A stretch of 64,000 nucleotides of DNA from positions 6,278,430 to 6,342,429 of the forward strand of contig OZ038383.1 of assembly GCA_964036045.1 (NCBI GenBank), in the 5' to 3' direction. Below the pieces are notes generated by a model, which was not told where the DNA came from, searched no databases, and was given only the letters and a program-made list of their open reading frames with translations. Position numbers and translations under genes: made by a program. The stretch's first letter is position 1. Each line of letters starts with the position of its first letter. This DNA is from Eutreptiella sp. 'Long Island Sound 2002'. Taxonomy: Eukaryota; Euglenozoa; Euglenophyceae; Eutreptiales; Eutreptiaceae. Below, piece by piece: positions 14,626-64,000 of the stretch.

Positions 14626-15246
14626 CTATTGCTTCAAAAATTCTTCTGCACTTTTAAACCCTGCGTGCAAAAAACGAAATTCAGGACGTTCCAAGGGACC
14701 TGACTCCAGCAAAAAACAACGACGATGACCTACGGGCGCTACCCTGTTCTTGCGAAGCCAAGGATGGCCCAAATAAAGGTCATACTTTATGTCAGCACGA
14801 TAGAAGTAGTCATCCTTAAGGACAACTTCTTCCACATTTTGCTCTTCCCAAAGGTCTTGAGCGACCAAATGAGTTGATATATAACAACCACGCTGCCCAC
14901 CTGCGAGAGAATGTCCAGAAACTCCCTCGAGGGTAACAGGATGAGGCGATTCAAACACGCAGTCGTCGGGTAAGAATGAATTGGATTGGAGATTTACCTC
15001 TGATCCATTGTCACACAAACAAGTGGCGAGATGGAAATTTCCCTTGCAATCAGAGACCCACAGCTTTGTGACAAACTGACGGGCCCTGTGCTTGGACTGT
15101 ACACCAACCTCGTCCACTACAACAGAAGGATCCGCTGCCGGATCCAGGGGAGAGGAGACAAGCGACCCTACATCAAGTAATGGTCGATCTGGAATCTGGG
15201 GATCATGCCTGAAATCGCCTGGGGAGGGGCGATTTTCGTGGCTCCC
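14626..15246 (-). pseudogene. Chromo-I pol: aspartic protease
   Basis: The frame is open from directly after the gag TAG (15,247-15,249) to another TAG at 14,626-14,628. The retropepsin-like segment has ATCLCDNGSEVNL (DNGS where DT/SG is usual), followed by hydrophobic strands and YDLYLGHPWLRKN, a typical G-H-x-WL flap and C-terminal region. The N-to-T/S difference in the active-site triad is unusual. The frame then continues through TAG-GTG into the Dam-like module. This second TAG is either a mutation (for example from CAG) or another leaky stop. Confidence 0.8.
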
Positions 15247-15249
15247 CTA
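15247..15249 (-). promoter_or_regulatory. Gag/pol TAG, candidate readthrough stop
   Basis: Minus strand GCC-TAG-GGG-AGC. Pol continues in the same frame with no other stop for more than 200 codons. Murine leukaemia virus and related retroviruses use a UAG followed by G in the same role. The context is shared with Chromo-II (GAA-TAG-GGG). Confidence 0.6.
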
Positions 15250-22022: not shown

Positions 22023-22997
22023 TTAGGCACCAGGCCACTGCAGCTCCAGGTTGTCTGTCACAACAAAGTCGTCCGGGGCGTCGCCGTAGTGGGCCGCCAC
22101 CGACTCAGACATCCAGCGACCCCAGTAGGCAAGCCATCGGACCGGTAACCCCAACCAGCGCCAGGCTGCCAACCCACCCTACCTCCACGCGTGCCATCGC
22201 GCGTGGGCGCTTGCGCGGCCGCTGAGGGCGGTTGCCATGACCATCTGGAGGTAGGCGGACCCTTGCGGGCAGACGTGCACCAAGGGGACCGCGGACGTGG
22301 ACCCCTCACCGCCGAACCATCGGAACCACAACCTGCCATAGCTCCCCTTCCTTTGCTTGACGAAGTGTGGGTCACACTTGCCGGTGTGAGACCCCAATCC
22401 CCGGCTGCAGGATCCTCCATGCCTGACCGGGGCTGCCTCGCCCACCCGTAGCAGGCAGGTGAACGATGGGACGGCCATTCCGTATACCGTCCACTGTGCC
22501 CTGCCATCACACGCCAACGCGAAAGCCCTGAGCTCCTCAAGTGCCGCGTACGGGCGGGCCACTGCTTGAGACGTCGACCACTTTGGACACCTCCAAACCA
22601 TGCCGGTGACGAACTCTGGTAGCCATCCCATCTCCCCCAGTGTCCGCAGTGTGGATACCGCCCCCTGGACGAAAGTCATGGAGTACGCCAGCCCCCATAG
22701 CTGGAAGAGGTACCTACCAGCGTCGGTTTCCAATTCGGCGATCGGCGTGTAGCCGACCGAGAGGGCCATTTTCCTGCAGTGGGTACAGCATGTACCCATT
22801 GTGCTCTTCGTCTAGGAGGATGCTTGTAGAGCATCCACGGAGGTGATCCCGTCCTCCTTCCACAACCGCCGCCACACTGCCCATACCAGACACCAGATCA
22901 CGTCGAGTTGGCCGGCTGCAAGACCACCACGCCTTTTCGGGGCTCGGGCTCCGCGCGCCCCACTGGGCAGCGCCCCCATCAGTAGACCCCTGGGCAC
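22023..22997 (-). pseudogene. Element X tyrosine recombinase, copy A
   Basis: One continuous frame, interrupted only by TAG at 22,812-22,814 and 22,179-22,181. The catalytic boxes of tyrosine recombinases are visible: box I Arg in FTCLLRVGEA, the HxxR motif HAWR (just before the second TAG), then a stretch ending AYWGRWMSESVAAHY with the presumed nucleophilic Tyr. These enzymes integrate DIRS-like retroelements through a circular DNA intermediate without target duplication. The frame overlaps the end of the gag-like frame by about 18 nt in another phase. Both TAGs are shared with copy B, so they predate the duplication. Confidence 0.78.
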
Positions 22998-24064
22998 TCG
23001 TTAAACCAGTGGTGCTTCACGCCCCGCCCGGCGTTCTGGCACACACAACATGCTGTCACTGGCGCGCACGCAACATCCATTGGCTCCGTGCCCAGCTTCG
23101 TCGTGTACAACCTGTGATCTCCCTCCATCCGGACCTTGGCCTTCATGGCCACCAGCCTGCGCGCCACCACCTCTTCCTCTGCAGCCCCTGTACAACCTTG
23201 CCATCTCGCGGGTAGACCGGGATCTTCGTCCTCCGCCTCCCGCTGGTCAACCAGTCCTTTGGGGTCGAGACCCCTTTTACAACGGTAGGCTGACAAGGAC
23301 GTCACTGTTAACGTCCAGACCGCCAGGACGAAGGCCCTCGGTCGGTCCGTCTGCTCATCATTCATGGATTCTAGACACCAGGCTTCGCTGTCTACGGCAT
23401 GAGAGTCCATAACAGGGGCCAAATCATCCAGCTTGACATCGGTGAACTTCTCCTTATCCCGAAAGCTCGACAAATACTCGTGGCCGGGCACCTCTCTGCG
23501 CCACAGCGGCGTGGACAGCACCAACAGGCTGGCATAGACCCACTGGAGTTTGGTATCCGGCTCCCAAATTTTCAGCAACTCAGCCTTGTACAACGGGGGC
23601 ACCCTCGCCATTTTCCTGTTTGCCGCGGCCTAGGACTTTGCGCTCACCTCCGCCAACTCCTTGCGCAGCCCCTCCGTGGCCATACGCCGGTCGTCCACGA
23701 GTTTCTTCAACTTTTGCAGTTCTGGTGTGGCGTTCTGGGGTGGCGCGGACTTCACGAAGCCCACTCCCTCTACATTGATGCTGCACGGCGCCATAAAGCA
23801 AAAATCCCCGATCATTTTCGGTAGACCCACCTCACTGTCCACCGGTACCCCAAACTTCTTCACAAATGTGTCCTCCCATTCTTTTCTGGTGTCCATCAAC
23901 ATCGACAGTGCCATTTTAACCTTCGACGTCGCCCTTGCGATTTCGATGAGCTTAGGCCACGCTAACTGCCCACCCCCTACCCACAGGCTGGGCTCCGCGG
24001 GGCCATACTGGCCCCTTGTGAGTACACCCAAAAACAGGGTATGAATTCTGCACCTAGGGGACAC
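22979..24064 (-). pseudogene. Element X gag-like protein, copy A
   Basis: Two minus-strand segments lie in one frame, separated by TAG at 23,630-23,632 (TCC-TAG-GCC). The first (to 24,064) has EWEDTFVKKFGVPVDSEVG and a coiled-coil-like LQKLKKLVDDRRM...LRKELAEV. The second (210 codons, ATG at 23,611) has YKAELLKIWEPD, a Trp/Leu-rich region, and a C-terminal zinc-knuckle-like CCVCQNAGRGVKHHWFNECP. Position ahead of the recombinase and RT supports a gag role. A third, partial copy lies at 51,945-52,315 on the plus strand. Confidence 0.6.
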
Positions 24065-25427: not shown

Positions 25428-25495
25428 ACAGTCCCTTGAGACCTTTTGAACCGACCCTGAGAAGTGCAGAACAAAAGCTCAACAACAAGTCCATA

Positions 25496-27670
25496 ATGTC
25501 CACACCAAGTGTAAGGACCTGGCCTATCCGAACTGTCCAAGTACAAATGGGCAGTGTGGTCCACCCAATGAGTGAACCACCACACCGAGCACCACATCAC
25601 CTCAGTGGCGCATCTGGGTCCCAAGGAGATCCAGAACGCAGAAGGGCGGAGAAGAATAAAGGCCTTACCACCGAGGCCTTAGCAGCACACGGTGGAGACA
25701 GCTTCAGTCACCTCCACAGACGTGTGGCTGCTTCAGTATCACGATCCAATTGCCCAGCTTCATCCTCAACTGCCATTGAAGGACCTGAGGAATATGAGAA
25801 GCTGAAGATGAAGATGGATGAGTACATCATGCACGATGAGTACTACAAATCCATCCGTGGGGAAGATGGAGAGGAACCACTGGCTGCACATGGGTCCAGA
25901 CCACGTACGGATCTAGGGTCCTACTCACACTCAGGCCCTCCGTCTACTGCATCCCTGCCAAGACGACTACGACCTGAGTACCCAACCCCAAGGGCTCCCA
26001 AAGTGGGCCCAACACAAGTCGAAGAACATCATCCAAGGCCAACCTACGGTGCCCTGGATCAAACGGCCGAGCTGCTGGCCAAATTCCTGTCTGGATCAGA
26101 AGATCCAGATGTGACGGCCTTATCAGAGGCCATTAAGGCTAAACTGGGTATTGCAGAACCCTTACCCAAGCCTGAGTTCCTCTCTCTCTCTCCAGGGCTG
26201 AGTACCCTGGCCGAAGATCTCAAGAGATCGAGGGTCTCAAGGCTGTTGCCTAAGGTTACCTGCCCCAGCCCCTTTCACCCCCGTGCCAGGACTGTGCCTA
26301 TGGCGGACCTACAGGACGTGCCTGTCACAGAGAGTGAGAGAAGAGGGCTGTCAGCCCTGGCCCCACTTGCCGGCGTGTCGCCTTCAGGCCTAACTCCGGG
26401 GGGTGGGAAGATGGGCAGACCAATTGCCCAGGCGAACATCCAGCTGGAACTGCCGGAGTTCGACCCTAAAAACCTGCCTGAATGGGCAGAAGAATTTGCG
26501 GAGTTCCTTTTGTTGACTGGCCAATCCCATGTGGATGTGGCCACCAAATGTTCACTGCTAAAACGCTCATGCAAAAAGAAATTTTTGCAAAAACAGGTCA
26601 AACAGATTGTGAAAACCTGTTCTACTTGGGCGGAGGTACTCCTGAGGTTAGGGAAAACATTCCCAGTCTATGAGACTGACCTCAGCGTACGCACACAAAT
26701 CGAGGAGCTACCTATGCTCCCGGAGTTTCCATCCGCTGCGCGAATTTCTGAGTATGTGTGCGACATGGAGTACTTATTTTCGAGGATGAATGTGGGCTCC
26801 TACGGAGCCACTGAGCCCCACCTGTGGCTCATGAGTAAGATCCCCCAGCGTACGTGGGATGATTGCCGCTCAACCTCTGAGAGGAAGAGCAGGACCCACT
26901 CGTATGATACACTGGTGGATCTCTTGATTGAGCTAGCTCTTGAGAGAGAGAACGACTCCCACATGGAGAAGTTCCTCAAGAAGCATTTGGGACGAGGTGG
27001 TACCCCTACCCCTGAACGTGGCGAAGGGAAGGGGCATAAAAATCCCACTAACACCAACCAGGGAGGCGGTAAAGGGAGGGGCAACCTACGTGCCATGAAC
27101 GAGGTTCCAACTGATGCAGGCACCCCCTCCCTGTTTTACTGCCGACCTGTCAATGACAAGGGGGGACCTTGTCATGCCTCTGACTGCGATCTCCGCAGTG
27201 GCTGTATGCTGCAGATGAAACGTCAGCAGCATACTAAAGATGGGAAAACTGTGACCCATCAGGACCCCTTCAGGTGTACCATCACCTGTGGTTACTGTGG
27301 CAAGCGTCGTCACTATGAGGACGAATGCCACATCAAGAAACGCGAGAGTGACAAACTCAAGCGTCAGGAGGCGGAGCGCCAGAAGAACCCGACGCCCGCC
27401 AGAAATCCCCCGAATGGGGATAGAGGTAAAGGAGGTGGCAAGGGGGGTGGTAAGACTGGACCCCCTAACCCCCAGAGGCGCTCATCAGCGCCCGTTGCTA
27501 CGCCTACTCCTGCTGCTACACCCGCTCCTGCCGCAGGTGTCCCCCAGAAGCGCCGCCAAGGGGATAACGCTACCCCTGAGGGGAATAATTCTAAGAAGAG
27601 GCGCTTGGCCTGGATGGCCAAGTCCCTCATGGCTGCAGGAGTGGATGTGAAATTCCCTGATGAGGAATAG
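25496..27670 (+). CDS. Chromo-II Gag
   Basis: Gag polyprotein, about 724 residues from the ATG at 25,496. The frame is open from about 25,436, but this is the first ATG. A disordered N-terminal third with several charged stretches precedes the capsid-like region near LELPEFDPKNLPEWAEEFA and ATKCSLLKRSCKKKFLQKQ. A Gly/Lys-rich segment follows, then a zinc knuckle CGYCGKRRHYEDEC (CX2CX4HX4C, about residue 600), a basic linker and a Pro/Ala-rich tail. It packages element RNA into virus-like particles. The terminal TAG (27,668-27,670) is followed by GGG and lies in frame with pol. Confidence 0.92.
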   Translation: MSTPSVRTWPIRTVQVQMGSVVHPMSEPPHRAPHHLSGASGSQGDPERRRAEKNKGLTTEALAAHGGDSFSHLHRRVAASVSRSNCPASSSTAIEGPEEYEKLKMKMDEYIMHDEYYKSIRGEDGEEPLAAHGSRPRTDLGSYSHSGPPSTASLPRRLRPEYPTPRAPKVGPTQVEEHHPRPTYGALDQTAELLAKFLSGSEDPDVTALSEAIKAKLGIAEPLPKPEFLSLSPGLSTLAEDLKRSRVSRLLPKVTCPSPFHPRARTVPMADLQDVPVTESERRGLSALAPLAGVSPSGLTPGGGKMGRPIAQANIQLELPEFDPKNLPEWAEEFAEFLLLTGQSHVDVATKCSLLKRSCKKKFLQKQVKQIVKTCSTWAEVLLRLGKTFPVYETDLSVRTQIEELPMLPEFPSAARISEYVCDMEYLFSRMNVGSYGATEPHLWLMSKIPQRTWDDCRSTSERKSRTHSYDTLVDLLIELALERENDSHMEKFLKKHLGRGGTPTPERGEGKGHKNPTNTNQGGGKGRGNLRAMNEVPTDAGTPSLFYCRPVNDKGGPCHASDCDLRSGCMLQMKRQQHTKDGKTVTHQDPFRCTITCGYCGKRRHYEDECHIKKRESDKLKRQEAERQKNPTPARNPPNGDRGKGGGKGGGKTGPPNPQRRSSAPVATPTPAATPAPAAGVPQKRRQGDNATPEGNNSKKRRLAWMAKSLMAAGVDVKFPDEE
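27668..27670 (+). promoter_or_regulatory. Gag/pol TAG of Chromo-II, candidate readthrough stop
   Basis: GAA-TAG-GGG-GGC. Pol follows in the same frame without an ATG near its start, so readthrough would give Gag-Pol directly. Chromo-I has the same arrangement and the same TAG-GGG context. Confidence 0.65.
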
Positions 27671-28270
27671 GGGGGCGGCTCCGAAGAGGAGGACTTGGTT
27701 TTCTGGATCCTCGTGAAAATTGGGGATCAAGTTTTTCGAGCAGTGCTTGATACCGGTGCAACACTTTCCATAGTGGCCCGGCGCCTGCTTAAAACTTTCA
27801 GGAAGACCAAGACTGTGGCCATAAGAGTAGGGGATGGGCGTACCATCCATTCCTTGGGGGGGCTCGATGTGACCATATGCCTGGGCGACGAAACTGTGAC
27901 CCAACAGTGCAGAGTGTTGGACACTGACGCCTTTGACATTGTCATTGGCACTGACTTTCTAAGAAGAAACCCCCAGGTTAAAATGCTGTCCCTACAGCGT
28001 CCTTACTCTTTGCACTGCGACTTTGGCAGTGGGCTATTCTCCGTTCCTTTGGAGCTGTCAGGACGAAAAGAGTCTGGGCTGCGCTACGCAGCCAAGACGA
28101 ACTATCGTACTGAAAACTACCAACTGGCCCGTCATGTTCTCGAAAATGGACTGGCGGCCCTTCAGGTAAACCTGGACGAGATCCAGGTGGAATTGTTTGC
28201 GAGCCAACAACAGCACATCATGCAGTTGTACTGCTCGAAACAAATGAACAATGCTTTCCGATTCTTCTGA
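27671..28270 (+). CDS. Chromo-II protease and start of Dam-like module
   Basis: In frame with gag after the TAG. The retropepsin active site is FRAVLDTGATLSIVARRLL (DTGA at 27,749-27,760) with a second conserved hydrophobic-Gly region (FDIVIGTDFLRRN). It processes Gag-Pol. The C-terminal ~40 codons (DEIQVELFASQQQHIMQLY) are the first strand of the Dam-like module, comparable to YDAFANRMNKRL in Chromo-I. A TGA at 28,268-28,270 cuts the module after 'FRFF', and the frame continues as KAMGLAYANPPF. A Trp (TGG) at this place would fit the Dam family, so the TGA is probably a recent mutation. Confidence 0.88.
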   Translation, partial: GGGSEEEDLVFWILVKIGDQVFRAVLDTGATLSIVARRLLKTFRKTKTVAIRVGDGRTIHSLGGLDVTICLGDETVTQQCRVLDTDAFDIVIGTDFLRRNPQVKMLSLQRPYSLHCDFGSGLFSVPLELSGRKESGLRYAAKTNYRTENYQLARHVLENGLAALQVNLDEIQVELFASQQQHIMQLYCSKQMNNAFRFF

Positions 28271-28276
28271 AAAGCA

Positions 28277-31200
28277 ATGGGCCTAGCGTATGCTAACCCT
28301 CCCTTCTCCCTGCTCGCGAAGGTTCTAACCAAGATCGCTTATGAGGGAGGAAGGGTTGTTATGTGCACCCCTGACTGGGGTTGCTCTGGTGAACATGCTT
28401 ACTGGCGCCGTATGCTTGACCGAATGACCGTGGGAAGAGTGCAACCCCCCGAAGGCCCCATCTATGTGCCTGAGGACTCAGACACAGCTATGCAGGCCCC
28501 TGAGTGGGCCAGTTTCCTGTCCATCATCGATGGATCTCTCAATCCTGTACCCCTGTGTGACCTGGACCAGGTGCTACTAAAAGAGGTCATGGCCGAAAAT
28601 CGTGGCCTGACCCTTTATGATCTCAAAAATCGATCTCCTGAGCACCTATCTGCCACACTTACAGGGTGTGAGTCTCCTGATGACTATCTGGAACCTGCAG
28701 CTGTAAAAGAGGATGCTGACGACCAACTGTCTGAGATTGCCAGCACTATTCCCTCTGTTGATCCCAGCTGTGTTGACCTAAAACATAGTGCTTTCCTGGC
28801 CCAGCTGTTGCTAGAGGAGGTAGATCTAGAGTCAACCTCTGAACCCGCTTCCTCTGTTGGGAAACCAGTGCTACACATGCAGCCTGTGCACACAGGTGAA
28901 CCCGTGGCCCGGAGTACTGATGCTCTGGCACGGCCTGCTGCTAATAACATGCCCTTGTCTGAGCATGACACTCAAGAACTACCACGGCTGCTGTACCTGA
29001 AGGCCGAAGGTATTGAGCGCCAAGAGCGGCTGCAATACCTCAGACAGACCTGGAAATACTCCATCTGGTCTGAGGAGGACGATGAGTCCTTTACGCTGCC
29101 TGATCCTGAGATACCTCTAGTGTACTCTCTACACTATGGGCAGCAATGTCCCCCTGAGTGGGACGATGGTACTGTACCTGCCGAAACTGCTGATCGGCAT
29201 AAAAAGAAAGAACATGGAAAAAGCAACCTCCATGCTGAGGAGGATTTCCTTCAGAAAGTCGAGAGTCTTAACCTTGACCCCCGCCTGAAGAAACTGCTTA
29301 TAACCTATGAGGAGGTGTTCGGCGCCTTGCCGCCTCCCCTATCTTGCAAAAAACTGGTCCAGATGGACCTGAAATTGAAACCAGAATTTGAAAAGACGCG
29401 AGTGAGGCGTCGTCCCTATCCCGCTCCACAGGAACAGGTTGAAGAAATCGAGCGCCAGATCCAAGAATGCATTGATGCTGGCCTCGTTGAGGAGTACAAA
29501 CATGGGGACTATCCCCATCACTGCAGCCCCTGTTTCCTTGTTGCTAAACCAGGGTCGACTGCTCTACGTCTTGTTGTAGACTATGGTGAGGTCAACAAGA
29601 AAACCCAGAACCACTCAGGGAGTATTCCTAACATGGAAAACACCCTGGAGCGTATTGCCAAATGCAGGTATAAGACCAAAATGGACAAACGCTCTGGTTT
29701 CTGGCAGGTTGACCTAACCGCCGCAGCTCAGGAGCTGCTTGCCTTTATATTTCCTAAGGGTCGTGTCTTCAAGTGGAAGGTTATGCCTTTCGGGGTGGCT
29801 AACGCCCCAGCGGTCTTCCAGGAGCTTATGAACAAAATTTTGTACATACTGAGGCACAGGCCTCTAGTACAAGAGTTGATTTCTCGGGGTGCAGAAATGG
29901 AGGCTCACATCGACGACGTGAGTTTGGGTACTAATACCAAAGAGGACCATGTCCTTCTCCTCCGTGAATTCTTCACTGTCTGTCAAGAAAACCATCTCCG
30001 AATCAAACTCCAAAAATGCGAGTTTATGAAAGAGGAGATGGAGTATTTGGGTTTCGACGTGGGGTATGGCTGGTGGAAACCAGCCGCGTCTAAGATGCAG
30101 CCCCTACAGGACATGCAGATTCGCGATGACCCTAAGAAGGGTCCACACGATGTGAGGAGTTTTGTGGGCGCCTGTAATTTCTATCGGCGTCACATCCACA
30201 ATTTTACTTACTCCTCTGCACCCCTCACTGACCTAATCAAGAAAACTACTCGCTGGAGGTGGACCTCCAGAGAGGAAGAGTGTTTCCAGGAGTTGAAGAA
30301 GAAGATTGCCTCCTCCAATTGCCTGGGAGTTCCCCGCCCTGAGGGCGAGATAGTCCTGATCACTGATGCCAGTGATGTAGGGGGGGGAGGTACGATCTAC
30401 CAATGGCAGGAGCTTAACCCCGCTGAGCTAACCCACTGCCATTATCGTACTACTGGACTGAACCGTGATGGTTCGTTGAAACATGACTATCCTACCAGTG
30501 AGTGGCGACTGGTGCCACTGGGACACTGGAATTGGAAGTGGAATCAAGCGCGTTCCAACTACAGCACCTATGACCAGGAACTCCTGGCCGGTATGTTGGT
30601 GCTATCTTCACAATCCCGACTCCTGGGGTCTAACCCTATTGTCTGGCTGTGTGACCAGGAGCCTGTGAAGTCTTTTCAGAAGGGCCCACCACCAGAAAAA
30701 GCGAAGCTAAAACGGTGGTGGACTTACCTGAGCCAGTTCAGGCTGACAGTGCATCATATCCCCGGTATTAAGAATGAACTTTCTGACTATATATCGCGCA
30801 ACAACTTCGATGCGCTTATTGGTGAGAGCTCTGAGGCACTCGCCAAAGAGGCTTTCCAGCGTATGGATGTCCAGCTTGACCTGTCCATGCGCACTGCTGG
30901 AATCCTGGAGGGTTGGAGTCTAACCGACTATCAGTCAGAGTATGAAGAAATTCTCCAAACCCTCAACACTGGTCTCGAACCCCGTGTCATTGACGGGCAC
31001 CAGTGGTATAAAAACAATCAGTACCTCTTCTACGAGGACCGAATTGTGGTGCCTGAGGCACGACTGGATGGGTGCCTACAGTGGTCCCATCTCAGTTCTG
31101 GTCACACTGGCGCTAATCGCTCAGTGGACTTCTTCCGTGAGTGTTTCTACTCTAGTCTAACCCTGACTGAACTGAGGTCGCGTATGCAGACCATTGTGGA

Positions 31201-32473
31201 TGCTTGTGGCTGTCATGCCAGCAAGCAAAGTGACAGTAGGGATAGGGGTCTGATCTCCAGCTTACCCATACCCTATTGTGCTAACTCTCTTCGCTACGTG
31301 GATTACATCCACGGCTTACCACGCTTTGGCGGCTATGATAGTTGCCTCGTGGTCACCTGTGGTCTATCTCGCTTCACCCGTGTGTTCCCTTGCAATAAGA
31401 AAATCACAGGTGAGCAGACTGTAAAGATGTTGGTCGAACAATGGTTCGAACCCTATGGAGCACCTAAACAGGTGCACTCTGATGAAGATGTACGCATCCG
31501 CAGTGACACTGGGTGGTACAAACGAGTGCTAAATGCCCTCAACGTGGAGGTAACCACAGGTGTGCCCTACACTCACACGTCTAACCCTCTCTGTGAGAGA
31601 CAGAACCGTGTGGTGGAGCAAAACTTAAGAATCCTGATGAAACAGGAGCGCACCAAGGACTGGGTACGCCTAGTGCCCTGGGCAGTTCTGTCCATGAACT
31701 CACAGCGGCGCTCTTCTACGGGTTTCACCCCCCACGAACTTTTCCATGGAGGACGACCTGCTTGGTTCTTCAAAACCCCCTTTCCTGAGGACTTCAAGAG
31801 CCCTGTGGGAGATTGGCTAGAACACAAGCAGTCTCTGGCTAACCAGGCTGGTACTAACCTGAGGCACATTCGTGACCGTGAACAGAGCCGACGGAACCGC
31901 CTACGGCGACCTGCCAGCTTCAAGGTTGGTGACCTTGTTTTGGTACACCATTCACGCCTACCCTCCTGGCCACGTAACTGCCTACAGGACCCTTACTTTG
32001 GACCCTATCGTATCATCAGGATAGATGGATCCAGGATCCATGTCAGGTGCAGTCCACGTCTAGGTGGTGAACTGCTATGTGCTCCTAAGCAGTTGAGGCA
32101 CTATCACTCCCCTGACGACTTGTCTTGGGATGAGTGGCGCCTCAGCGACAGTGAGATTGAACGTATAGACCTAGAGAACGCTGCCAGTCCAGAGGAGGCA
32201 GACGAACTCGAAGAGATGACTGCCGATGAGATGGCAGTCGATGGTTACTACGTGGTTGCAGGTATTGCTCGCCACGAGTATAAACAGGGCTGGAAATTCC
32301 TTACCCTGTGGGATGGCTATGGGTTGTCCGAGGCGACCTGGGAACCTATGTCAGCCTTCATACAACCAGATGGGAGTATCAACCCCATCTTCCGCACTTA
32401 CCTCGTTGAGAACAACGAGGGGCAGCTCCTAACCCGTGCTGAGACTATGTCCCAGCGTAAGAAGCGAAACTAA
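28277..32473 (+). CDS. Chromo-II Pol: Dam-like, RT, RNase H, integrase, chromodomain
   Basis: 1,398 residues, in the same frame as gag and protease. The NPPF motif is at residues 7-10, followed by VVMCTPDWG and ASFLSIIDGS (rest of the Dam-like module). The RT has STALRLVVDYGEVNKK, KMDKRSGFWQVDL, VMPFGVANAPAVFQ and an unusual catalytic HIDD at about 544-547, where YxDD is usual. RNase H starts near VLITDASDVGGGG. The integrase has a zinc-binding HLSSGH...CGC and the triad D1009, D1069 and E1107. The C-terminal chromo-like domain contains VVAGIARHEYKQGWKFLTLW and ATWEP. The frame is intact to TAA and appears functional apart from the upstream TGA. Confidence 0.93.
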   Translation: MGLAYANPPFSLLAKVLTKIAYEGGRVVMCTPDWGCSGEHAYWRRMLDRMTVGRVQPPEGPIYVPEDSDTAMQAPEWASFLSIIDGSLNPVPLCDLDQVLLKEVMAENRGLTLYDLKNRSPEHLSATLTGCESPDDYLEPAAVKEDADDQLSEIASTIPSVDPSCVDLKHSAFLAQLLLEEVDLESTSEPASSVGKPVLHMQPVHTGEPVARSTDALARPAANNMPLSEHDTQELPRLLYLKAEGIERQERLQYLRQTWKYSIWSEEDDESFTLPDPEIPLVYSLHYGQQCPPEWDDGTVPAETADRHKKKEHGKSNLHAEEDFLQKVESLNLDPRLKKLLITYEEVFGALPPPLSCKKLVQMDLKLKPEFEKTRVRRRPYPAPQEQVEEIERQIQECIDAGLVEEYKHGDYPHHCSPCFLVAKPGSTALRLVVDYGEVNKKTQNHSGSIPNMENTLERIAKCRYKTKMDKRSGFWQVDLTAAAQELLAFIFPKGRVFKWKVMPFGVANAPAVFQELMNKILYILRHRPLVQELISRGAEMEAHIDDVSLGTNTKEDHVLLLREFFTVCQENHLRIKLQKCEFMKEEMEYLGFDVGYGWWKPAASKMQPLQDMQIRDDPKKGPHDVRSFVGACNFYRRHIHNFTYSSAPLTDLIKKTTRWRWTSREEECFQELKKKIASSNCLGVPRPEGEIVLITDASDVGGGGTIYQWQELNPAELTHCHYRTTGLNRDGSLKHDYPTSEWRLVPLGHWNWKWNQARSNYSTYDQELLAGMLVLSSQSRLLGSNPIVWLCDQEPVKSFQKGPPPEKAKLKRWWTYLSQFRLTVHHIPGIKNELSDYISRNNFDALIGESSEALAKEAFQRMDVQLDLSMRTAGILEGWSLTDYQSEYEEILQTLNTGLEPRVIDGHQWYKNNQYLFYEDRIVVPEARLDGCLQWSHLSSGHTGANRSVDFFRECFYSSLTLTELRSRMQTIVDACGCHASKQSDSRDRGLISSLPIPYCANSLRYVDYIHGLPRFGGYDSCLVVTCGLSRFTRVFPCNKKITGEQTVKMLVEQWFEPYGAPKQVHSDEDVRIRSDTGWYKRVLNALNVEVTTGVPYTHTSNPLCERQNRVVEQNLRILMKQERTKDWVRLVPWAVLSMNSQRRSSTGFTPHELFHGGRPAWFFKTPFPEDFKSPVGDWLEHKQSLANQAGTNLRHIRDREQSRRNRLRRPASFKVGDLVLVHHSRLPSWPRNCLQDPYFGPYRIIRIDGSRIHVRCSPRLGGELLCAPKQLRHYHSPDDLSWDEWRLSDSEIERIDLENAASPEEADELEEMTADEMAVDGYYVVAGIARHEYKQGWKFLTLWDGYGLSEATWEPMSAFIQPDGSINPIFRTYLVENNEGQLLTRAETMSQRKKRN

Positions 32474-43657: not shown

Positions 43658-44812
43658 CTATTTTTCCCCTCGCTGATTGCGCCCTGCCTTGGACTGGGTG
43701 TCTGCATCCCCACCTCTCCACCCTCCGAGGTCTTCTTCTTCTGACCCCACGTCTTTATCCTGCACACAGAGGGCCAGTAGCTCCCCTGGGAAGATATCTT
43801 TAAGGGACACAATTCTCCACTCCCACTGCATGTCCCATTGGGCACCAGGCCACTGCAGCTCCAGGTTGTCTGTCACAACAAAGTCGTCCGGGGCGTCGCC
43901 GTAGTGGGCCGCCACCGGCTCAAACATCGGGCGACCCCAGTAGGCAAGCCATCGGACCGGTAACCCCAACCAGCGTCAAGCTACCAACCCACCCTACCTC
44001 CACGCGTTCCATGGCGCGGGGGCGCTTGCGCGGCCGCTGAGGGCGGTTGCCATGACCATCTGGAGGTAGGCGGACCCTTGCGGGCAAACGTGCACCAAGG
44101 GGACCGCAAACGTGGACCCCTCACCGCCAAACCATCTGAACCAGAACCTGCCAGAGCTCCCCATTCTTCGCTTGACGAATTGTGGGTCACACTTGACGGT
44201 GTGAAACCCCAATCCCCGGCTGCAGGATCCTCCACGCCTGATGGGAGCTGCCTCGCCCACCCGTAGCAGGCAGGTGAACGATGGGACGGCCATTCCGTTT
44301 ACCGTCAATTGTGCCCTGCCATCACACGCCAACGCGAAAGCCCTGAGCTCCTCCATTGCCGCGTACGGGCGGGCCACTGCTTGAGACGTCGACCACTTTG
44401 AACACCTCCAAACCATGCCGGTGACGAACTCTGGTAGCCATCCCACCCCCTCCAGTGCCCGCAGTGCGGATACCGCCACCCGGACGAGACTCATGCAGTA
44501 CCCCAGCCCCCATAGCTGGAATAGGTACCTACCAGCGTCGGTTTCCAATTCGGCGATCGGCGTGTAGCCGACCGAGAGGGCCAATTTCCTGCAGTGGGTA
44601 CAGCATGTACCCATTGTGCTCTTCGTCTAGGAGAATGTTTGTAGGGCATCCACGGAGGTGATCCCGTCCTCCTCCCACAACCGCCGCCACACTGCCCATA
44701 CCAGACACCAGACCACATCGAGTTGGCCGGCTGCAAGACCGCCACGCCTTTTCGGGGCTCGGGCTCCACGCGCCCCACTGGGCAGCACCCCCATCAGTAG
44801 AACCCTGGGCAC
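43658..44812 (-). pseudogene. Element X tyrosine recombinase, copy B
   Basis: It parallels copy A: GGLAAGQLDVVWCLVWAV, TAG, MGTCCTHCRKLALSVGYTP, box I FTCLLRVGEAAPIR, then MATALSGRAS, WNAWR (where copy A has HAWR), TAG, and AYWGRPMFEPVAAHYGD with the presumed nucleophile Tyr. In B the H of HxxR is N and an extra TGA replaces a Trp before RWLGLP, so this copy is more decayed. The frame continues into EDLGGWRGGDADTQSKAGR before ending at 43,658. Confidence 0.72.
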
Positions 44813-45840
44813 TCGTTAAACCAGTGGTGCTTCACGCCCCGCCCGGCGTTCTTGCACACACGACATGCTGTCAGTGGCGCGCACGCAACATCCATCGGCT
44901 CCCTACCCGGCTTCGCCGTGTACGACCTGTGATCTCCCTCCGTCCGGACCTTGGCCTTCATGACCACCGGCCTTCGCTCTACCACCTCTTCCTCTGCAGC
45001 CCCTGTACAACCTTGCGATCTCGCGGGTAGACCGTGATCTTGTTTCTCCGCCTCCCGCGCGTCAACCAGTCCTTTGGGGTCAAGACCCCTCTTACCGCGG
45101 TAGGCTGACAAGGACGTCACTGTGAAGTTCCAGACCGCCAAGACGAAGGCCCTCAGTCGGTCTGTCTCCTCATCATTCGTGGATTCTAGACACCAAGCTT
45201 CGGTGTCTACGGCATGAGAGTCCATAACAAGGGCCAAACCATCCAGCTTGAGATCGGTGAACTTCTTCTTATCCCGAAAGCTCGACAAATACTCGTGGCC
45301 GGGCACCTCTCTGCGCCACAGCGGCGTTGACAGCACCAACATGCTGGCATAGACCCACTGGGGTTTGGCATCCGGCTCCCAAATTTTCAGCAACTCAGCC
45401 TTGTACAACGGGGGCACCCTCGCCATTTTCCTGTTTGCCGCGGCCTAGGACTTCGCGCTCACCTCCGCCAACTCCTTGCGCAGCCCCTCCATGGCCATAC
45501 GCCGGTCGTCCACGAGTTTCTTCAACTCCTGCAGTTCTGGGGTGGCGTTCTGGGGTGGCGCGGACTTCACGAAGCCCACTCCCTCTACATTGAGGCTGCA
45601 CGGCGCCATAACGCAAAAATCCCCGATAATTTTCTTTAGACCCACCTCACTGTCCACCGGTACCCCAAACTTCTTCACAAATGTCTCCTCCCATTCTTTT
45701 CTCCTGTCCATCAACACCGACATTGCCATTTTAACCGTCGACGTCGCCCTTGCGATTTCGATAAGCTTAAGCCATGCTAACTGTTCACCCCCCTACCCAC
45801 AGGCTCGGCTCCGCGGGGCCATACTGGCCCCTTGTGAGTA
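44794..45840 (-). pseudogene. Element X gag-like protein, copy B
   Basis: The C-terminal 210-codon part (44,794-45,426) is intact, with YKAELLKIWEPD and the zinc-knuckle-like CRVCKNAGRGVKHHWFNECP. The N-terminal part (45,445-45,729) has EWEETFVKKFGVPVD and ELAEVSAKS before the shared TAG-GCC. An extra C near 45,791 shifts the frame further upstream. Confidence 0.6.
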
Positions 45841-56110: not shown

Positions 56111-57345
56111 TCGATTCCTGGGGTTTCAGGTGGCGCAGGGGGGAGGGGGGCTTTGGGAAAGGTGGCGGGGGGTCAGGGAGGGGGGCTACACTTGGATGGT
56201 GGTTCAAGGTGGGGAATGGGATCGGATGGGATAGTGTCCACACCCAGTATTGACGTTGTACCGGAGCGCTGGGCCCCTCTACCACTACAGCTGACCTCGG
56301 AGGCTATCGCAGGGCTCCCCGTGTTGGACTTGGGGCTGCAGGACACCCTGACCCTGGGCGACCTAGGTGCGGTGAATCCTGACACTCACGCACACTGAAC
56401 TCCCCCGCCTGGAGTCAGTGGGATGCGCAGCTGCAGGCGTCCTATTTCGTCTCATTTGACCTGATCTTGACCGGATCCTATTGCTTACTTTCCATCTAGT
56501 TTCACCAGGTGAGACAGATTGCAGGTACAGGTACCGGTTTCTGTTACGGCAGGTGTTGTTACAACACGCTATTCTTTAGGTTCAAGAGTATTATTCAGAT
56601 CCACCCCTTTTCGTCTGATTTGACTGGTTTGACCGGACCGAACCCTTTTCCTTTGTCCAACCTTGAGAGTAATGGCTGATACAGGCTACAAAGACACCAC
56701 AGCTACAGTGCGTTTGCGTCGTTTGCTTCTTAGTTGCGTGGGTGCGGTTAAGGGAACTCGAATTTTGAACCCAAATGGGTTCAAGAGAATTATACAGACC
56801 CAACCCACGTTGTAAGTGGGCGTGAACCCTGTTCCTGGCCTTAAAAACAGGTCAGAAGGGACCTGGGAAACGGCGCTGGCCAATTAGTGCAGGTAAGGCA
56901 GCTACCAAGGCTAGGAGAAGGTACGTGACGCCACAGATGTGCGGATCCTGTGTGGTCACACCCCGGGAACATCGAGTGCCAGAGGGTCCCCCTACAGGGG
57001 GGCGATAACCAAGCTACGGCACCCTCTGGGCCGAATCCCAGCCAGCGAGTTTTGTTTCCAGGTTACCGGCCAGTTTTTATGGTTTACCCCCACGTGCTCA
57101 TAAGTGTCAGTTAGCGTTGTCGTCATCAGCCTGATTCTGACTCCCCATATGTTTCTCCCGTTTAACCCAAGTGTGAACAAATGCTAGTGGATCCTTGAAA
57201 ATGATGTACTGGATTCGCACATTTTACTTGCTCAATCCTTCTGCTATTGATTTGTTTCGTTCCCTTGCCTGTCGTGCGTGGGCCTGTGAATGATTCAAGA
57301 TTCAATCACCAATTGAGTTGATGCCCGTCGTACATCAGACGCCCC
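56111..57345. other. No gene; weak internal repetition
   Basis: Two diverged ~165-195-bp blocks share CGTCT(C/G)ATTTGAC and GGTTCAAGAG-ATTAT-CAGA-CC (56,440-56,635 and 56,605-56,830). No open frame with a recognisable domain is seen. Confidence 0.45.
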
Positions 57346-57650
57346 AGTGATCCCCCCTTTTACCCCTGTATTGCATCTCCCCCCTACACCCCCCCCCCCG
57401 GGCCCTCCCAAACCTCCCCTCCAACCCCCCCAAGCCCCCCCACCCCTCTCCCCCCTACGCCCCTCCAGCTTTTCCAACATCCTCCTCCCCCACCCCCCCC
57501 CCCGCACCCTCTGCCCATCCTGGGGCCCCCCCAATTCCCCCTTCAACCCCCCAAGCCCCCCAACCCTCCTCCCCCCCCTCCCTCCCGTCCCCCCGAGCTC
57601 AGCCCTCACATCCCCCTCCACCCCCCTCATCCCCCCGCATCCTTCAAGGC
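57346..57650. repeat. C-rich low-complexity tract
   Basis: About 300 bp made mostly of CCCCC and CCCTCC motifs on the plus strand, strongly strand-asymmetric. The complementary strand is G-rich and could form G-quadruplexes. Confidence 0.85.
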
Positions 57651-57675
57651 TGGGGAGGGCAATGTCTTGCCATAC

Positions 57676-59700
57676 ATGAGTCAGACGGTAGCCTATCAGG
57701 TTCGTGCATCAGAGGCCCTGGGTGAATCAATAGTCAGGGGGTAGCCTATCAAGTTCGTGCATCAGAGGCCCTTGTTGACTGAATAATCAGGGGGTAGCCG
57801 ATCAAGTTCGTGCATCAGAGGCCCCCGGTAAATCAATAATCAGGGGGTAGCCTATCAAGATCGTGCATCAGAGGCACCCGAGAAATTAATAGTCAGGGGG
57901 TAGCCTATCAGGTTCGTGCATCAGAGGCCCTGGGTAAACCAGAAGTCCGGGGGTGGCCTATCAAGTTCGTGCATCAGAGGCCCCCGGTAAATGAACAGTC
58001 AGGGGGTAGCCTATCAAGTTCGTTCATCAGAGGCCCCTGGTAAGTCAATAGTCAGGGGGTGGCCTATCACGTTCGTGCATCAGAGGCCCCAGGTAGATCA
58101 ATAGTCAGGGGGTAGCCTATCAAGTTCGTGCATCAGAGGCCCTTGTTGACTCAATAATCAGGGGGTAGCCTATCAAGTTCGTGCATCAGAGGCCCCCGGT
58201 AAATCAATAATTAGGGGGTAGCCTATCAAGTTCGTGCATCAGAGGCCCGTGGTAAATCAATAGTCAAAGGGTAGCCTATCAAGTTTGTGCATCAGAGGCC
58301 CTGGGTAAATCAATAGTCAGGGGGTGGCCTATCAAGTTCCTGCATCAGAGGCCCCCAGTAATTGAACAGTCAGGGGGTAGCCTATCAAGTTTGTGCATCA
58401 GACGCCCCTGGTAAGTCAATAGTCAGGGGGTAGCCTATCAAGTTCGTGCATCAGAGGCCCCTGGTAAATCAATAATCAGGGGGTAGCCTATCAAGTTTGT
58501 GCATCAGAGGCCCCATGTAGATCAAAAGTCAGGGGTAGCCTATCAAGTTCGTGCATCAGAGGCCCTTGTTGACTCAATAATCAGGGGGTAGCCTATCAAG
58601 TTCGTGCATCAGAGGCCCCCGGTACATCAATAGTCAGGGGGTAGCCTATCAAGTTCGTGCATCAGAGGCCCGTGGTAAATCAATAATCAGAGGGTAGCCT
58701 ATCACGTTCGTGCATGAGAGGCCCTGGTAAATCAATAGTCAGGGGGTGGCCTATCAAGTTCGTGCATCAGAGGCCCCCAGTAAATGATGAGTCAGGGGGT
58801 AGCCTATCAAGTTCGTGCATCGGAGGCCCCTGGTAAATCAATAGTCAGGGGGTGGCCTATCAAGTTCATGCATCAGAGGCCCCTGGTAAATCAATAATCA
58901 GGGGGTAGCCTATCAAGTTTGTGCATCAGAGGCCCCATGTAGATCAATAGTCAGGGGGTAGCCTATCAAGTTCGTGCATCAGAGGCCCTTGTTGACTCCA
59001 TAATCAGGGGGTAGCCTATCAAGTTCGTGCATCAGAGGCCCCGGGTAAATCAATAATCAGGGGGTAGCCTATCAAGTTCGTGCATCAGAGGCCCGTGGTA
59101 AATCAATAGTCAGAGGGTACCCTATCAGGTTCGTGCATCAGAGGCCCTGGTAAATCAATAGTCAGGGGGTGGCCTATCAAGTTTGTGCATCAGAGGCCCC
59201 CAGTAAATGAACAGTCAGGGGGTAGCCTATCAAGTTCGTGCATCAGAGGCCCCCGGTAAATCAATAATCAGGGGGTAGCCTATCAAGTTCGTGCATCAGA
59301 GGCCCGTGGCAAATCAATAGTCAGAGGGTAGCCTATCAAGTTCGTGCATCAGAGGTCCTGGTAAATCAATAGTCAGGGGGTGGCCTATCAAGTTTGTGCA
59401 TCAGAGGCCCCCAGTAAATGAACAGTCAGGGGGTAGCCTATCAACTTCGTGCATCAGAGGCCCCTGGTAAGTCAATAGTCAGGGTGTAGCCTATCAAGTT
59501 CGTGCATCAGAGGCCCCCAGTAAATGAACAGTCAGGTGGTAGCCTATCAAGTTCGTGCATCAGGGGCCGTTGGTAAACCAATAGTCAGGGGGTAGCCTAT
59601 CAAGCTCGTGCATCAGAGGCCCCCGGTAATTCAATAGTCAGGGGGTAGCCTATCAAGTTCGTGCATCAGAGGACCTTTGTGAATCAATAAGGGGGGTTAG
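57676..59700 (+). repeat. 53-bp satellite with higher-order structure
   Basis: About 38 monomers with the core GGGGGTAGCCTATCAAGTTC and GTGCATCAGAGGCCC, plus a variable tail. Tail variants recur in order: the CCCTTGTTGACT variant occurs at 57,769, 58,140, 58,563 and 58,986, spaced 7, 8 and 8 monomers apart. The array ends 29 bp before the MULE ATG. Confidence 0.95.
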
Positions 59701-59728
59701 CCTCTCACGTTCATCCCTCGTTGTAGAC

Positions 59729-62700
59729 ATGTCAATCTTATTGCTTTTGCTCTGCGCAATCTGCGATGTCGGCTGGAGCCTTGTGGGGCTGACCATAGTC
59801 CTTTGTGGTCTCGTTTCAGCCGCTGTTGTTCTCTCCCTTCTCCATCGGAGGCATCGTAGACACCACCAACGGCAGCGAAGACGCTCACAGTGTCAACTAC
59901 TCCACAAGGGACGATGTGCGAGCAAGGAGATCCCCATTTTCGTGGCACTCCTCGACAGAACCCTCGTTCTGTGTGTGCCTAAGGATATCAGTGAGACTGC
60001 CATCTCAGATCTGGTGAGGATCATCACTGGTGTGCCCGTTCATGATCAGCGAATTTGTAGAGTTTCACGCAGAACCGGTGACTGGGTCCGTAACGAACGG
60101 GTTCTTGTCCTGTTCCGTCTCCGCGGTGGTGTTGCATGGAACTGCATCCCGCTGCAGGATCAAACCGCAGACTTCCTTCGAACCAACTTTTGGTCCCTCC
60201 ACGCGTCCATGGGCCACCCTACCCCCGCCCAGATGACCTTGCTTTTTGAGGGTGCATCTGACGATCCATTTTGTGCGACCTTGGGATCTGTTTCTTCATC
60301 AATGTTGGACAACGTCGAAACGGAACCCGCGGAAGTGGCAGTTTCATCCAGACCTGCCCCCGTAAGAAACCCCCCTGCCATCTTATCTCCAACCCCGGCA
60401 TCTGACTCGGGACCCACGGAATCTACGGATCCGGCCCGCTTAATTAAGCATGAGTTTAGTGGCGCCCAGTCACCGCGTTCTGATCCTAAACCTCATCCCG
60501 ACATCCCCCCCTGCAAACGCGTGAAACGCGAAGCCTATTGTCCCTCCAAGCACTCCCCCGAACGTGGAGACGAGGTTGGCTGCACCTTCCGGTCCCACAC
60601 CGAAGCTGTTGCATACCTGAATAAGATTCGGGGGGAGTTGGCAATGCATAACAGCGTTACCAGCAAGTCTGCAGAGCGGAGTAATCGGGCACGTATTGGT
60701 TGTCGCATTTGGGGACGCCTAAAACAACACGGGCCCCTAAAGGATACCAGTAGAGCACGCCGGGAAAAGCATCCCCGGCCTCTCACGAAGTCTGATTTGT
60801 GTACATATGGTGCAACGCTAACCCATGATCCTGGCACGGGCCTGTGGAAGCTAACCGAGTGTAATTGGGACCACTCTGACCATTGGTGGCCTGACGAGGA
60901 GGAGGCCCCCCCACTGGACAAATCAGCCCTCCCTGATGAGCTTTGGCACGACATTGAGCGGGCGTATGAGCACCGTGAAATGCCGGAGCAATTTCTTGTA
61001 ATTTTGAGGAAGAAATATAGCGAGGACGCGTACCCGGCAATCAAAGGGCTTTCAACCCAGCACATCAGAAACTTTTTCAAGTCCATCAAACGCAAGATGG
61101 GCCCAAATGATCTTGCAAGTTTGATTAACCACCTGAAAATGCTCAAACAGGCAGATCCTGCCTGGTATTTCAATCATGAAGCCCCTGACCCAGTCACTGG
61201 TGTTGTACGAAGATGGTTTTTTATGACGCCAGAGCAAGTAAAAAACGCCAGAAAATATGCACAAGTCATTTTTGAAGATAACACGTACAAATCCAATCAG
61301 TACGGCGAGGCATTGGCCCTGTTTTGTGGTATCAACGAACATGGCCAAACCCTTCTCCTGGCTCAGGGCTGCATGCCAAGCAGTGAAAATGCAGAGGATT
61401 ATGAGTGGCTCTGGCAGGAGTGGATAAAGGCAACCGGTTGTGCACCCCGCGTTTTGTTGGGTGATGCTGCATACGCCCTCTTGGGGTCTGTTCCCAGGGT
61501 TTTCCCCCCGGACCGAACTGCTCACTTCCTCTGCCTTTTTCACATTAACAAAAATCTTACCGAAAACTGCCGAAACTCCCTCGAGCAACACGATTTCACT
61601 GCTCTTGAGAGCGCCATCCGACAGGTTCAGGAGTGCCCAGATAAGGACGCTGCTGATATTCTCTGGCGCAAAAATCTGGAGGACCCCCGCTGGAAAACTG
61701 TCAAGGACTACCTTGGAGTCAGATCCCCCCTACATCGTCTTGACCGTTGGTGTGTTGCATGGCAGGTAGAAGTTTTTACCTTCGGCTGCAAGCCCACACA
61801 GAGGGCTGAGTCTTTGAATTGCCGCATAAAGCGCCACCTAACTGCAAGAAAAGGTTACTACCACATTTTTTTATCTGTTTTGCACTTGCTCTCCAAGGAG
61901 GGCTATAAACTTGAATATACTGAAATGGTGAATCACCGGGACGCCAGTCACCAAATAGCTAACCAGACCTTCCCATTCTATGTCAAGTTCGTTTCAGGCA
62001 AGGTGACAAGCTGGGCGTTTGATAGAATGCTCCAGCAGATGAATGCTTCAACTGCGTACCTCGTGTATGAGTATGACGTGTCCAGGGAGGCCCAATATAT
62101 AGTTGCTAACAGGGCGGCACCCTTATGGAACTATGTTCGACAGTGTCACGATTCACTTGAGACGGAATTGGTAGACCTACCGAGATTCTGTGCGATCTCC
62201 AATCGTGTGCACCAAATCCAAGGCAAAAATATAGTTTATGAGGTAAAGCGAAGTGAATCCAGCTGCACTTCGCGTTACATGAACTGTCCACATTATGTTT
62301 GTCTGTTCGAGCCATTGGCTGAGGATGGTGCCTCTACGAAGTTTTGGTGTAGTTGTGGACTTGCTGTCCGAGTCGGGCATCCATGTCGTCACTCTTTTGC
62401 TGTTTTGCATCATCGGTCATCTTCGGTCGGCTTCCATCTTGGGTTGTTCAATCCAAATCTTATTTTAAAACAACTTCAGACTGCAACTCAGGTCCTTGTC
62501 AGTGCCAAATGCAGCAGCCAACGCCTCCCCCTACCCACAGTGCAGGTACCCGTGGCAATCCATGCTACAGACGATGACATTATATTGACCGACATCTCCT
62601 CGTGGGCTGATTTGCCAGCCAGAACGAAACGCGAGCAGATTGTCCGCTCCCTTGGGAACCTGCAGTCCCGGATGCGTCAATATATAACTAATGTGGATCG

Positions 62701-63235
62701 AGTGGCAACTCATCTTTCCGACCAGGGACAGGATGCAGGGGCCTTTCTCGAAGAAGAGGAGAGGCTACCGAACCAATTTGTGGACATGCGAGCCTCCTCC
62801 ACACAGGTCCATGTGGCAGGTGCACAAGCACCACGACCTGTTCCCCCGCCGGTGGCCGCCAAGCAAACCGTGCAGCCAACTGTCAGCAAGGCCGCTAAGC
62901 CGGGGGATGGTCCAAAGGGTGCTACAAAGGGAAGAGGTAGGGGTCAGGGTAGGGGTAGCGGTCCGCTGCTGAAGGAAGAGCTGAATGCTGCCCTTGAGCT
63001 TTCAGATGCGCTAACCACCGTGAATCAGGCTCCTGGGGGCCTGAGTGCGCAGCAGGCCGCGTATAATGATCAATTGCATGCACACATTCACAATATGGTT
63101 GACTCGGCTGAGCAGGTTGATACTGACGTGGCTCAGTTGTATGCTCGGGCTGCATGTGGGGAACAACTTTCGCCAGCTGAGTTGCATCAGTGTAAGCAGC
63201 TTTGGGAGTGGCGGGCTCAAGTGTCGAAGAACTAA
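59729..63235 (+). CDS. MULE transposase with N-terminal ubiquitin-like domain
   Basis: 1,168 residues, ending in TAA. Residues 5-36 are hydrophobic, followed by an Arg/His run. Residues 67-134 look like ubiquitin: IPIFVALLDRTLVL, then a helix with SDLVRIITGVPVHDQRI, ending VLVLFRLRGG. A Pro-rich linker and a FAR1-like zinc region follow (about 270-390, ending LWKLTECNWDHSDHW). The MULE DDE core is D517 (EDNTYKS), D579 (LGDAA) and E694 (QRAESLN). A SWIM zinc finger is at 874-888 (CSCG...CRH), and a Gly/Arg-rich then helical tail closes the protein. It cuts and pastes DNA in the nucleus. The first ATG may not be the true start. Tandem arrays flank it on both sides. The frame is intact. Confidence 0.9.
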   Translation: MSILLLLLCAICDVGWSLVGLTIVLCGLVSAAVVLSLLHRRHRRHHQRQRRRSQCQLLHKGRCASKEIPIFVALLDRTLVLCVPKDISETAISDLVRIITGVPVHDQRICRVSRRTGDWVRNERVLVLFRLRGGVAWNCIPLQDQTADFLRTNFWSLHASMGHPTPAQMTLLFEGASDDPFCATLGSVSSSMLDNVETEPAEVAVSSRPAPVRNPPAILSPTPASDSGPTESTDPARLIKHEFSGAQSPRSDPKPHPDIPPCKRVKREAYCPSKHSPERGDEVGCTFRSHTEAVAYLNKIRGELAMHNSVTSKSAERSNRARIGCRIWGRLKQHGPLKDTSRARREKHPRPLTKSDLCTYGATLTHDPGTGLWKLTECNWDHSDHWWPDEEEAPPLDKSALPDELWHDIERAYEHREMPEQFLVILRKKYSEDAYPAIKGLSTQHIRNFFKSIKRKMGPNDLASLINHLKMLKQADPAWYFNHEAPDPVTGVVRRWFFMTPEQVKNARKYAQVIFEDNTYKSNQYGEALALFCGINEHGQTLLLAQGCMPSSENAEDYEWLWQEWIKATGCAPRVLLGDAAYALLGSVPRVFPPDRTAHFLCLFHINKNLTENCRNSLEQHDFTALESAIRQVQECPDKDAADILWRKNLEDPRWKTVKDYLGVRSPLHRLDRWCVAWQVEVFTFGCKPTQRAESLNCRIKRHLTARKGYYHIFLSVLHLLSKEGYKLEYTEMVNHRDASHQIANQTFPFYVKFVSGKVTSWAFDRMLQQMNASTAYLVYEYDVSREAQYIVANRAAPLWNYVRQCHDSLETELVDLPRFCAISNRVHQIQGKNIVYEVKRSESSCTSRYMNCPHYVCLFEPLAEDGASTKFWCSCGLAVRVGHPCRHSFAVLHHRSSSVGFHLGLFNPNLILKQLQTATQVLVSAKCSSQRLPLPTVQVPVAIHATDDDIILTDISSWADLPARTKREQIVRSLGNLQSRMRQYITNVDRVATHLSDQGQDAGAFLEEEERLPNQFVDMRASSTQVHVAGAQAPRPVPPPVAAKQTVQPTVSKAAKPGDGPKGATKGRGRGQGRGSGPLLKEELNAALELSDALTTVNQAPGGLSAQQAAYNDQLHAHIHNMVDSAEQVDTDVAQLYARAACGEQLSPAELHQCKQLWEWRAQVSKN

Positions 63236-63322
63236 GGACATTTCAAATTTCAAGTCTGAGTTTATGTTCCATGCCTCCACGGTTCACCTGTGTAAGGTTG
63301 GGTTTGCCACTGCTGAGGTCTG

Positions 63323-64000
63323 AGGTCCGTTGAAAATGAGTAGGAGGGAGTTGAAAATGAGCAGGAGGGAGTGCAAAATGAGTAGGAGGGAGTTGAAAAT
63401 GAGCAGGGGGGAGGTGAAAATGAGCAGCAGGGAGATGAAAATGAGCAGGGGGGAGTGGATGTTCACTTGGAGGGAGTTGAAAATGAGCAGCAGGGAGTTG
63501 AAAATGAGCAGGGGGGAGTGGACTTTCACTTGGAGGGAGTTGAAAATGAGCAGGGGGGAGTTGAAAATGAGCAGCAGGGAGCTGAAAATGAGTAGGAGGG
63601 AGTGGATTTTCACTTGGAGGGAGTTGAAAATGAGCAGGGGGGAGTTGAAAATGAGTAGGAGGGAGTGAATGTTCACTTGGAGGGAGTTGAAAATGAGCAG
63701 GGGGGAGTTGAAAATGAGTAGGAGGGAGTTGAAAATGAGTAGAAGGGAGTGGATTTTCACTTGGAGGGAGTTGAAAATGAGCAGGGGGGAGTTGAAAATG
63801 AGCAGCAGGGAGTTGAAAATGAGTAGAAGGGAGTGGCTTTTCACTTGGAGGGAGTTGAAAATGAGCAGGGGGGAGTTGAAAATGAGTAGGAGGAAGTGGA
63901 CGTTGACTTGGAGGGAGTTGAAAATGAGCAGGGGGGAGTTGAAAATGAGTAGGAGGGAGTTAAAAATGAGTAGGAGGGTGTGGACGTTCACTTGGAGGGA
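63323..64000 (+). repeat. 21-bp minisatellite
   Basis: Units of GAGTTGAAAATGAGCAGGGGG and close variants (AGTAGGAGG, AGCAGCAGG), with GTGGA-TTTTCACTTGGAGG inserted every two to five units. Because units are 21 bp, frames stay open on both strands (63,284-63,991 minus encodes LLLIFNS repeats). The array continues past the window end. Confidence 0.95.

Follow-up and report, generated by a model that had tools for sequence, protein, structure and literature searches.

The DNA analysed here, a stretch of 64,000 nucleotides from Eutreptiella sp. 'Long Island Sound 2002' (contig OZ038383.1, positions 6,278,430 to 6,342,429; hereafter the window), contains on its plus strand an open reading frame (ORF) of 1,168 codons, which encodes the transposase of a large Mutator-like element (MULE) that has amplified recently. 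Its N-terminal part holds a segment, residues 67-134, that ends in RLRGG and whose resemblance to ubiquitin appears to exceed chance only weakly, and the two copies of the element that we read at both ends were shown to carry a further ORF, predicted to encode a Ulp1-like cysteine protease. A preliminary description had reported an intact MULE transposase with a set of ubiquitin-like motifs at 59927-60130. The ORF list and translation of the window confirmed that the frame is uninterrupted, Pfam matched a MULE transposase domain in it (residues 514-609, E 2e-16), which places it among the MULE-type DDE transposases, and residues 67-134 correspond exactly to 59927-60130 and contain IFVALLDRTLVL, SDLVRIITGVPVHDQRI and the end VLVLFRLRGG.

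To define the element we searched the host genome of 2.28 Gb, which gave 41 listed matches (best 40 of 4,982 candidates scored), and fetched 30 transposase loci, the window's own included; 25 of these have no internal stop. Twenty-nine of the loci were aligned, L030 being left out for its length. The 28 other copies are 98.3-100% identical among themselves, the family has therefore spread recently, and they share 97.1-97.7% with the copy in the window, which is more diverged, being either older or of another subfamily. In a blastn comparison with another copy, homology begins abruptly at window position 56441 (L045:585) and everything upstream is missing; the left end of the element was looked for in the window and not found there, and the element runs on for 879 bases past the window to its right terminus (L042:1809). 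The left terminus was obtained by reading outward from the copies on C6 and C15. The terminal inverted repeats (TIRs) share 66 of their first 67 bases when the left end of the C6 copy is compared with the right end of the C15 copy, and both of the copies read at both ends are flanked by 9-bp target-site duplications, CAATAACTC and CATTTCTCC. Target-site duplications of MULEs measure 8-11 bp. Judged from their terminus positions, with a short interior stretch of each unread, the C6 and C15 elements are 17,942 and 17,176 bp long. TIRs together with 9-bp target duplications thus identify a genuine, regular MULE; a LINE-like origin (long interspersed nuclear element), suggested by copies that shared their 3' end and differed at the 5' end, was dropped once the left TIR and the duplications appeared. 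At the right terminus of the L005 copy the outermost 30 bases are duplicated in tandem.

In the longer copies two ORFs lie upstream of the transposase on the same strand, the first being an open frame of 819 codons. The preliminary description had drawn attention to Ulp1-type proteases carried by some MULEs, and this link is supported by the 819-codon frame, found in both elements read at both ends. When its protease part was searched alone against PDB, the best match was yeast Ulp1 (E 0.013), followed by beta-galactosidases (0.16-0.41); the whole ORF gave weak matches, with a lectin first (E 0.066) and Ulp1 second (E 0.089). H531, D550, Q599 and C605, numbered from the frame start at L059:2066, occur in this order in the alignment with yeast Ulp1 (1euv) and are presumably the catalytic residues, while a Pfam scan of the ORF gave no C48 model among matches up to E 1. 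The C15 copy holds the DNA of this ORF in two pieces at 99.8-99.9% identity, and the 653 codons read there (L060) are all open. The second ORF, scanned in the C6 copy only, gave a SET match slightly below the cut-off (Pfam E 2.7e-4, 21.8 bits against 22.4); in the C15 copy the SET-like sequence sits in a longer frame that reads through the stop of the other copy and stays open for 792 codons, up to where the stretch ends. The copy in the window has neither ORF, and their sole trace there is a 17-residue echo of the end of the Ulp1-like ORF, located inside the 53-bp repeat array. A sub-threshold DnaJ-like stretch was noted at residues 310-333 of the Ulp1-like ORF (E 0.016).

The transposase itself begins with a strongly hydrophobic leader (mean hydropathy 1.7-2.5 over 19-residue segments starting at residues 1-23), which is followed by a basic stretch and the RLRGG-ended segment. 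Further downstream lie KRVKRE, which we take to resemble a nuclear localisation signal, and a C...C...HxxH pattern, presumably a zinc-binding DNA-binding domain like that of other MULE transposases; nothing matched over this pattern (residues 325-385) in the Pfam scan. By their motif, D517 and D579 within the MULE domain and E694 downstream of it are presumably the catalytic DDE-type residues, and a SWIM-like finger scored below threshold (12.4 bits against a cut-off of 19.6).

RLRGG is kept in 28 of the 30 genomic copies, the window's included, 27 of them by motif scan and L021 by alignment; the scan passed over L021 since its downstream anchor was not located, and the alignment shows its domain unchanged. 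Because the copies are so young, this retention says little, and as they have been drifting neutrally selection tests cannot show a function of the domain. The preliminary description had asked for other MULE copies with the same fusion, and these exist: in all copies examined, that is two public clusters and the 29 aligned genomic copies, the domain lies within the transposase frame and is thus no peculiarity of a single copy. Homologous-protein searches, one of which scored only the best 8,000 candidates by words shared, returned only the same two public clusters. In both of these public copies the transposase is cut short: P0001 departs from the window's version directly ahead of the SWIM-like finger, P0002 stops at the residue before W646.

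We then weighed whether residues 67-134 are related to ubiquitin. Searched against PDB up to E 10, the window's domain matched ubiquitin-like sequences only (E 0.038-0.21), with UBL1-eS31 at the top (E 0.038; an ungapped alignment of 49 residues that starts at residue 2 of the chain), followed by a pair of Sacsin sequences (E 0.21), presumably from the Ubl domain of Sacsin; reversed and shuffled versions of the domain yielded no matches. The domain of P0002 found UBL1 first (0.16) and then a nucleocapsid protein (1.9), that of P0001 Sacsin (0.044), UBL1 (0.96) and then ribosomal L23 (1.4). Profile-profile comparison by hhalign aligned positions 10-46 with 10-46 (score 17.58, P 0.0056), a score reached by none of 400 shuffles, the best of which came very close at 17.52. 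Among 10,000 shuffles of the domain, one attained its score against ubiquitin, none did with a milder gap cost, and 71 reached the score obtained without the RLRGG tail. The C-terminal GG of ubiquitin-like domains is present in RLRGG at residues 130-134. Residues 66-134 modelled alone with AlphaFold2 gave E6-10, E13-19, H24-35, E41-47 and E59-65 with the RLRGG tail free, in a shallow model (3 sequences, mean predicted local distance difference test score, pLDDT, 71.3); this order and, with ubiquitin's boundaries as we assume them, also the spacing are close to those of ubiquitin.

These observations are equally to be set against the explanation that the segment is an ordinary small alpha/beta part of the transposase N-terminus, not kin to ubiquitin and perhaps nearer to ribosomal uL23, in which RLRGG is a chance motif, possibly a hairpin turn with VAWNCI, and stays uncut. 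Several results favour it and weigh against the ubiquitin relationship. When the six-frame ORFs of the whole window were shuffled, 75 of 300 sets held an equally good match to ubiquitin; Pfam gave no match in the domain, and when nine ubiquitin-like proteins were combined into a profile it scored at background (1.4 bits, P 0.016). Foldseek and VIA-align gave ribosomal proteins, uL23 where the chain is named, among the matches listed, with no ubiquitin-like chain among the best 50 rows of each fold search, and the weak L23 match of the P0001 domain points the same way. In a longer AlphaFold2 construct, again a shallow model (3 sequences, mean pLDDT 58.8), RLRGG lies in a hairpin turn between strands 124-132 and 136-140. 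What this explanation accounts for less well are the exclusively ubiquitin-like PDB matches of the window's domain with its silent controls, the hhalign result, the ubiquitin-like succession of strands and helix, and the Ulp1-like protease ORF carried by the same element. The ubiquitin-like domain of the preliminary description was supported as regards the order of strands in the model of residues 66-134 and the PDB matches, and was not supported as regards statistical homology or, as far as the two shallow models can show, a beta-grasp fold. We consider kinship of residues 67-134 to ubiquitin, with high divergence, a serious possibility that falls slightly short of an even chance, and it is about as likely that an ordinary alpha/beta segment resembles ubiquitin by chance. 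Further searches gave the following results: three PDB chains matched a profile of the whole alignment (A1), each of them in the linker that follows the domain, since that alignment is mostly transposase; NCBIfam returned nothing, PHROGs one family of unknown function for the domain (E 0.01), the viral contigs no match for the whole protein and the prokaryote genomes no match. A single 18-residue match in a viral contig (L001) was judged to be chance.

It could further be argued that translation of the transposase leaves this stretch out altogether, the protein starting at M161 and the domain being leader or untranslated sequence. M161 is indeed the next in-frame methionine after M1, with no in-frame ATG between them, the domain is as variable as the transposase among three copies, and of six pyrimidine-preceded AG sites in 59600-60240 those at 59819 and 59850 fall between M1 and the domain, those at 59958 and 59983 within it; another, at 59726, stands directly before M1, as would suit a start there. 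Of 20,000 dinucleotide shuffles only 135 keep the frame open from M1 to M161 (1,097 of 20,000 over residues 61-134), and by a codon usage model trained on residues 286-900 the transposase frame (frame 0) is the best of six in every segment tested, residues 1-66 and 67-134 included. We therefore hold a start at M161 to be quite improbable.

If the domain is a diverged ubiquitin relative, the following mechanism may be proposed. The transposase would begin with the hydrophobic, anchor-like leader and the basic stretch, next to which a small strand-strand-helix-strand-strand module would form the ubiquitin-like domain ending in RLRGG, with the nuclear, DNA-binding and DDE parts behind it. The module would act as a processing tag: a cut after RLRGG, made by a deubiquitinase of the host or by the Ulp1-like protease of the element itself, would free the transposase from its leader. 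Any cleavage after RLRGG we regard as unlikely. Still more speculative, and in our estimate rather remote, is that the element forms a self-contained protease-substrate cassette, in which a latent membrane-anchored precursor with a captured ubiquitin-like domain is turned by the element's own Ulp1-like protease into active transposase that is released into the nucleus.

Parts of this arrangement have precedents. Ulp1 proteases in MULEs and in Ginger transposons are established (PMC2528002, PMC2836005): according to these sources, MULEs with a Ulp1-type protease include the KAONASHI elements (KI-MULEs) of Arabidopsis and examples from melon, rice, maize, grapevine, hydra and lancelet, and MULEs whose ULP is oriented like the transposase are also described. 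Like KI-MULEs, the element reported here combines a Mutator-type transposase with a Ulp1-like cysteine protease. In contrast to KI-MULEs, described as non-TIR elements with a reversed ULP, it has TIRs and a separate Ulp1-like ORF upstream in the same orientation, and in addition a SET-like ORF and a transposase whose N-terminal stretch resembles ubiquitin and ends in RLRGG. Ginger1 transposons likewise encode a ubiquitin-family protease, with Ulp1 or OTU domains at the C-terminus (PMC2836005), but belong to another transposase family, and the accessible part of the source describes the protease as fused and mentions no ubiquitin-like domain; it also offers a role of Ulp1-type proteases in transposition as a possibility. 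Here, unlike in natural ubiquitin fusions, a hydrophobic leader precedes the unit, which has about 8 residues fewer than ubiquitin and a similarity to it that falls short of significance. An RLRGG-like junction is shared with known fusions. A ubiquitin-type unit joined to another protein is also what UBL1-eS31 (PDB 9bh5) and the ubiquitin-Ni-SOD of Symbiodinium (PMC3329448) represent. Among the titles and abstracts listed in our searches, which cover the literature partially, none showed a ubiquitin-like domain on a MULE transposase, and a MULE survey across eukaryotes (PMC6446971) and a beta-grasp review (PMC1949818) make no mention of such a fusion under the words searched.

The positions of all features are listed in Table 1. 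A second MULE family occurs in the same genome, represented by five loci (L047-L051) taken from 150 PF10551 matches; its N-terminus is different, and two compared loci of it align to the transposase described here at E < 0.1 only over residues 441-786, with about 29% identity. Thirteen MULE-domain matches are clustered on one contig (G000:C16:6449067-6815995), 9 of them in 338-codon frames. Ubiquitin units in tandem form a very large array elsewhere in the genome, in frames that reach 1,701 codons (G000:C15:29319398-29378821, L033-L041), and, with the best 150 of 659 candidates scored, at least one further tandem set (C14:38300652-38333780). The window was also scanned for relics of a spliced leader, as would fit a dinoflagellate origin considered at first, and none was found. 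Elsewhere in the window matches to reverse transcriptase and integrase mark two retroelements, at 10091-18281 (minus strand) and 25436-32473 (plus strand), the first with a chromodomain; by their gene order we take both to be Ty3-like. Small ORFs of 206 and 210 aa occur as two similar pairs at 22179-23611 and 43994-45426, on the minus strand, and were recognised by eye as an apparent repeated unit.

Table 1. Features of the Mutator-like element in the window and, in the last two rows, in the C6 and C15 copies.
Feature	Position	Strand	Basis
Window's part of the MULE copy, starting at an internal point of the element	56441..64000	+	blastn to other copy
53-bp tandem repeat array, 37.5 units, within the element	57687..59672		Tandem Repeats Finder (TRF); similar array in C9 copy
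3' tandem repeat array, periods of 21/63/84/147 bp, running past the window	63329..64000		TRF; copy comparison
Transposase ORF, 1,168 aa	59729..63235	+	ORF reading; Pfam MULE domain
Very hydrophobic leader, membrane-anchor-like, residues 1-39	59729..59845	+	hydropathy
Basic stretch RRHRRHHQRQRRR, residues 40-52	59846..59884	+	residue positions
Candidate ubiquitin-like domain ending in RLRGG, residues 67-134	59927..60130	+	sequence and fold comparisons, for and against
RLRGG, residues 130-134	60116..60130	+	translation; motif scan
KRVKRE, residues 263-268	60515..60532	+	residue positions
C...C...HxxH pattern, residues 325-385	60701..60883	+	residue positions
MULE transposase domain, Pfam PF10551, residues 514-609	61268..61555	+	Pfam; motif positions
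SWIM-like zinc finger, residues 873-896	62345..62416	+	Pfam below cut-off
Ulp1-like ORF, 819 codons (C6 copy)	L059:2066-4522	same as transposase	PDB sequence search
SET-domain-like ORF	L059:7488-8948 (C6) and L060:4924-7299 (C15)	same as transposase	Pfam slightly below cut-off; sequence match

Should the element indeed be a protease-substrate cassette, copies without the protease ORF, such as the one in the window, would depend on complete copies. A protease of this kind together with a possible GG-ended ubiquitin-like domain on the element's own transposase would provide a specific candidate substrate and would open the role of Ulp1-type proteases in transposition to testing. Whether or not the segment is related to ubiquitin, a young MULE of 17-18 kb with Ulp1-like and SET-like ORFs is unusual and well delimited.
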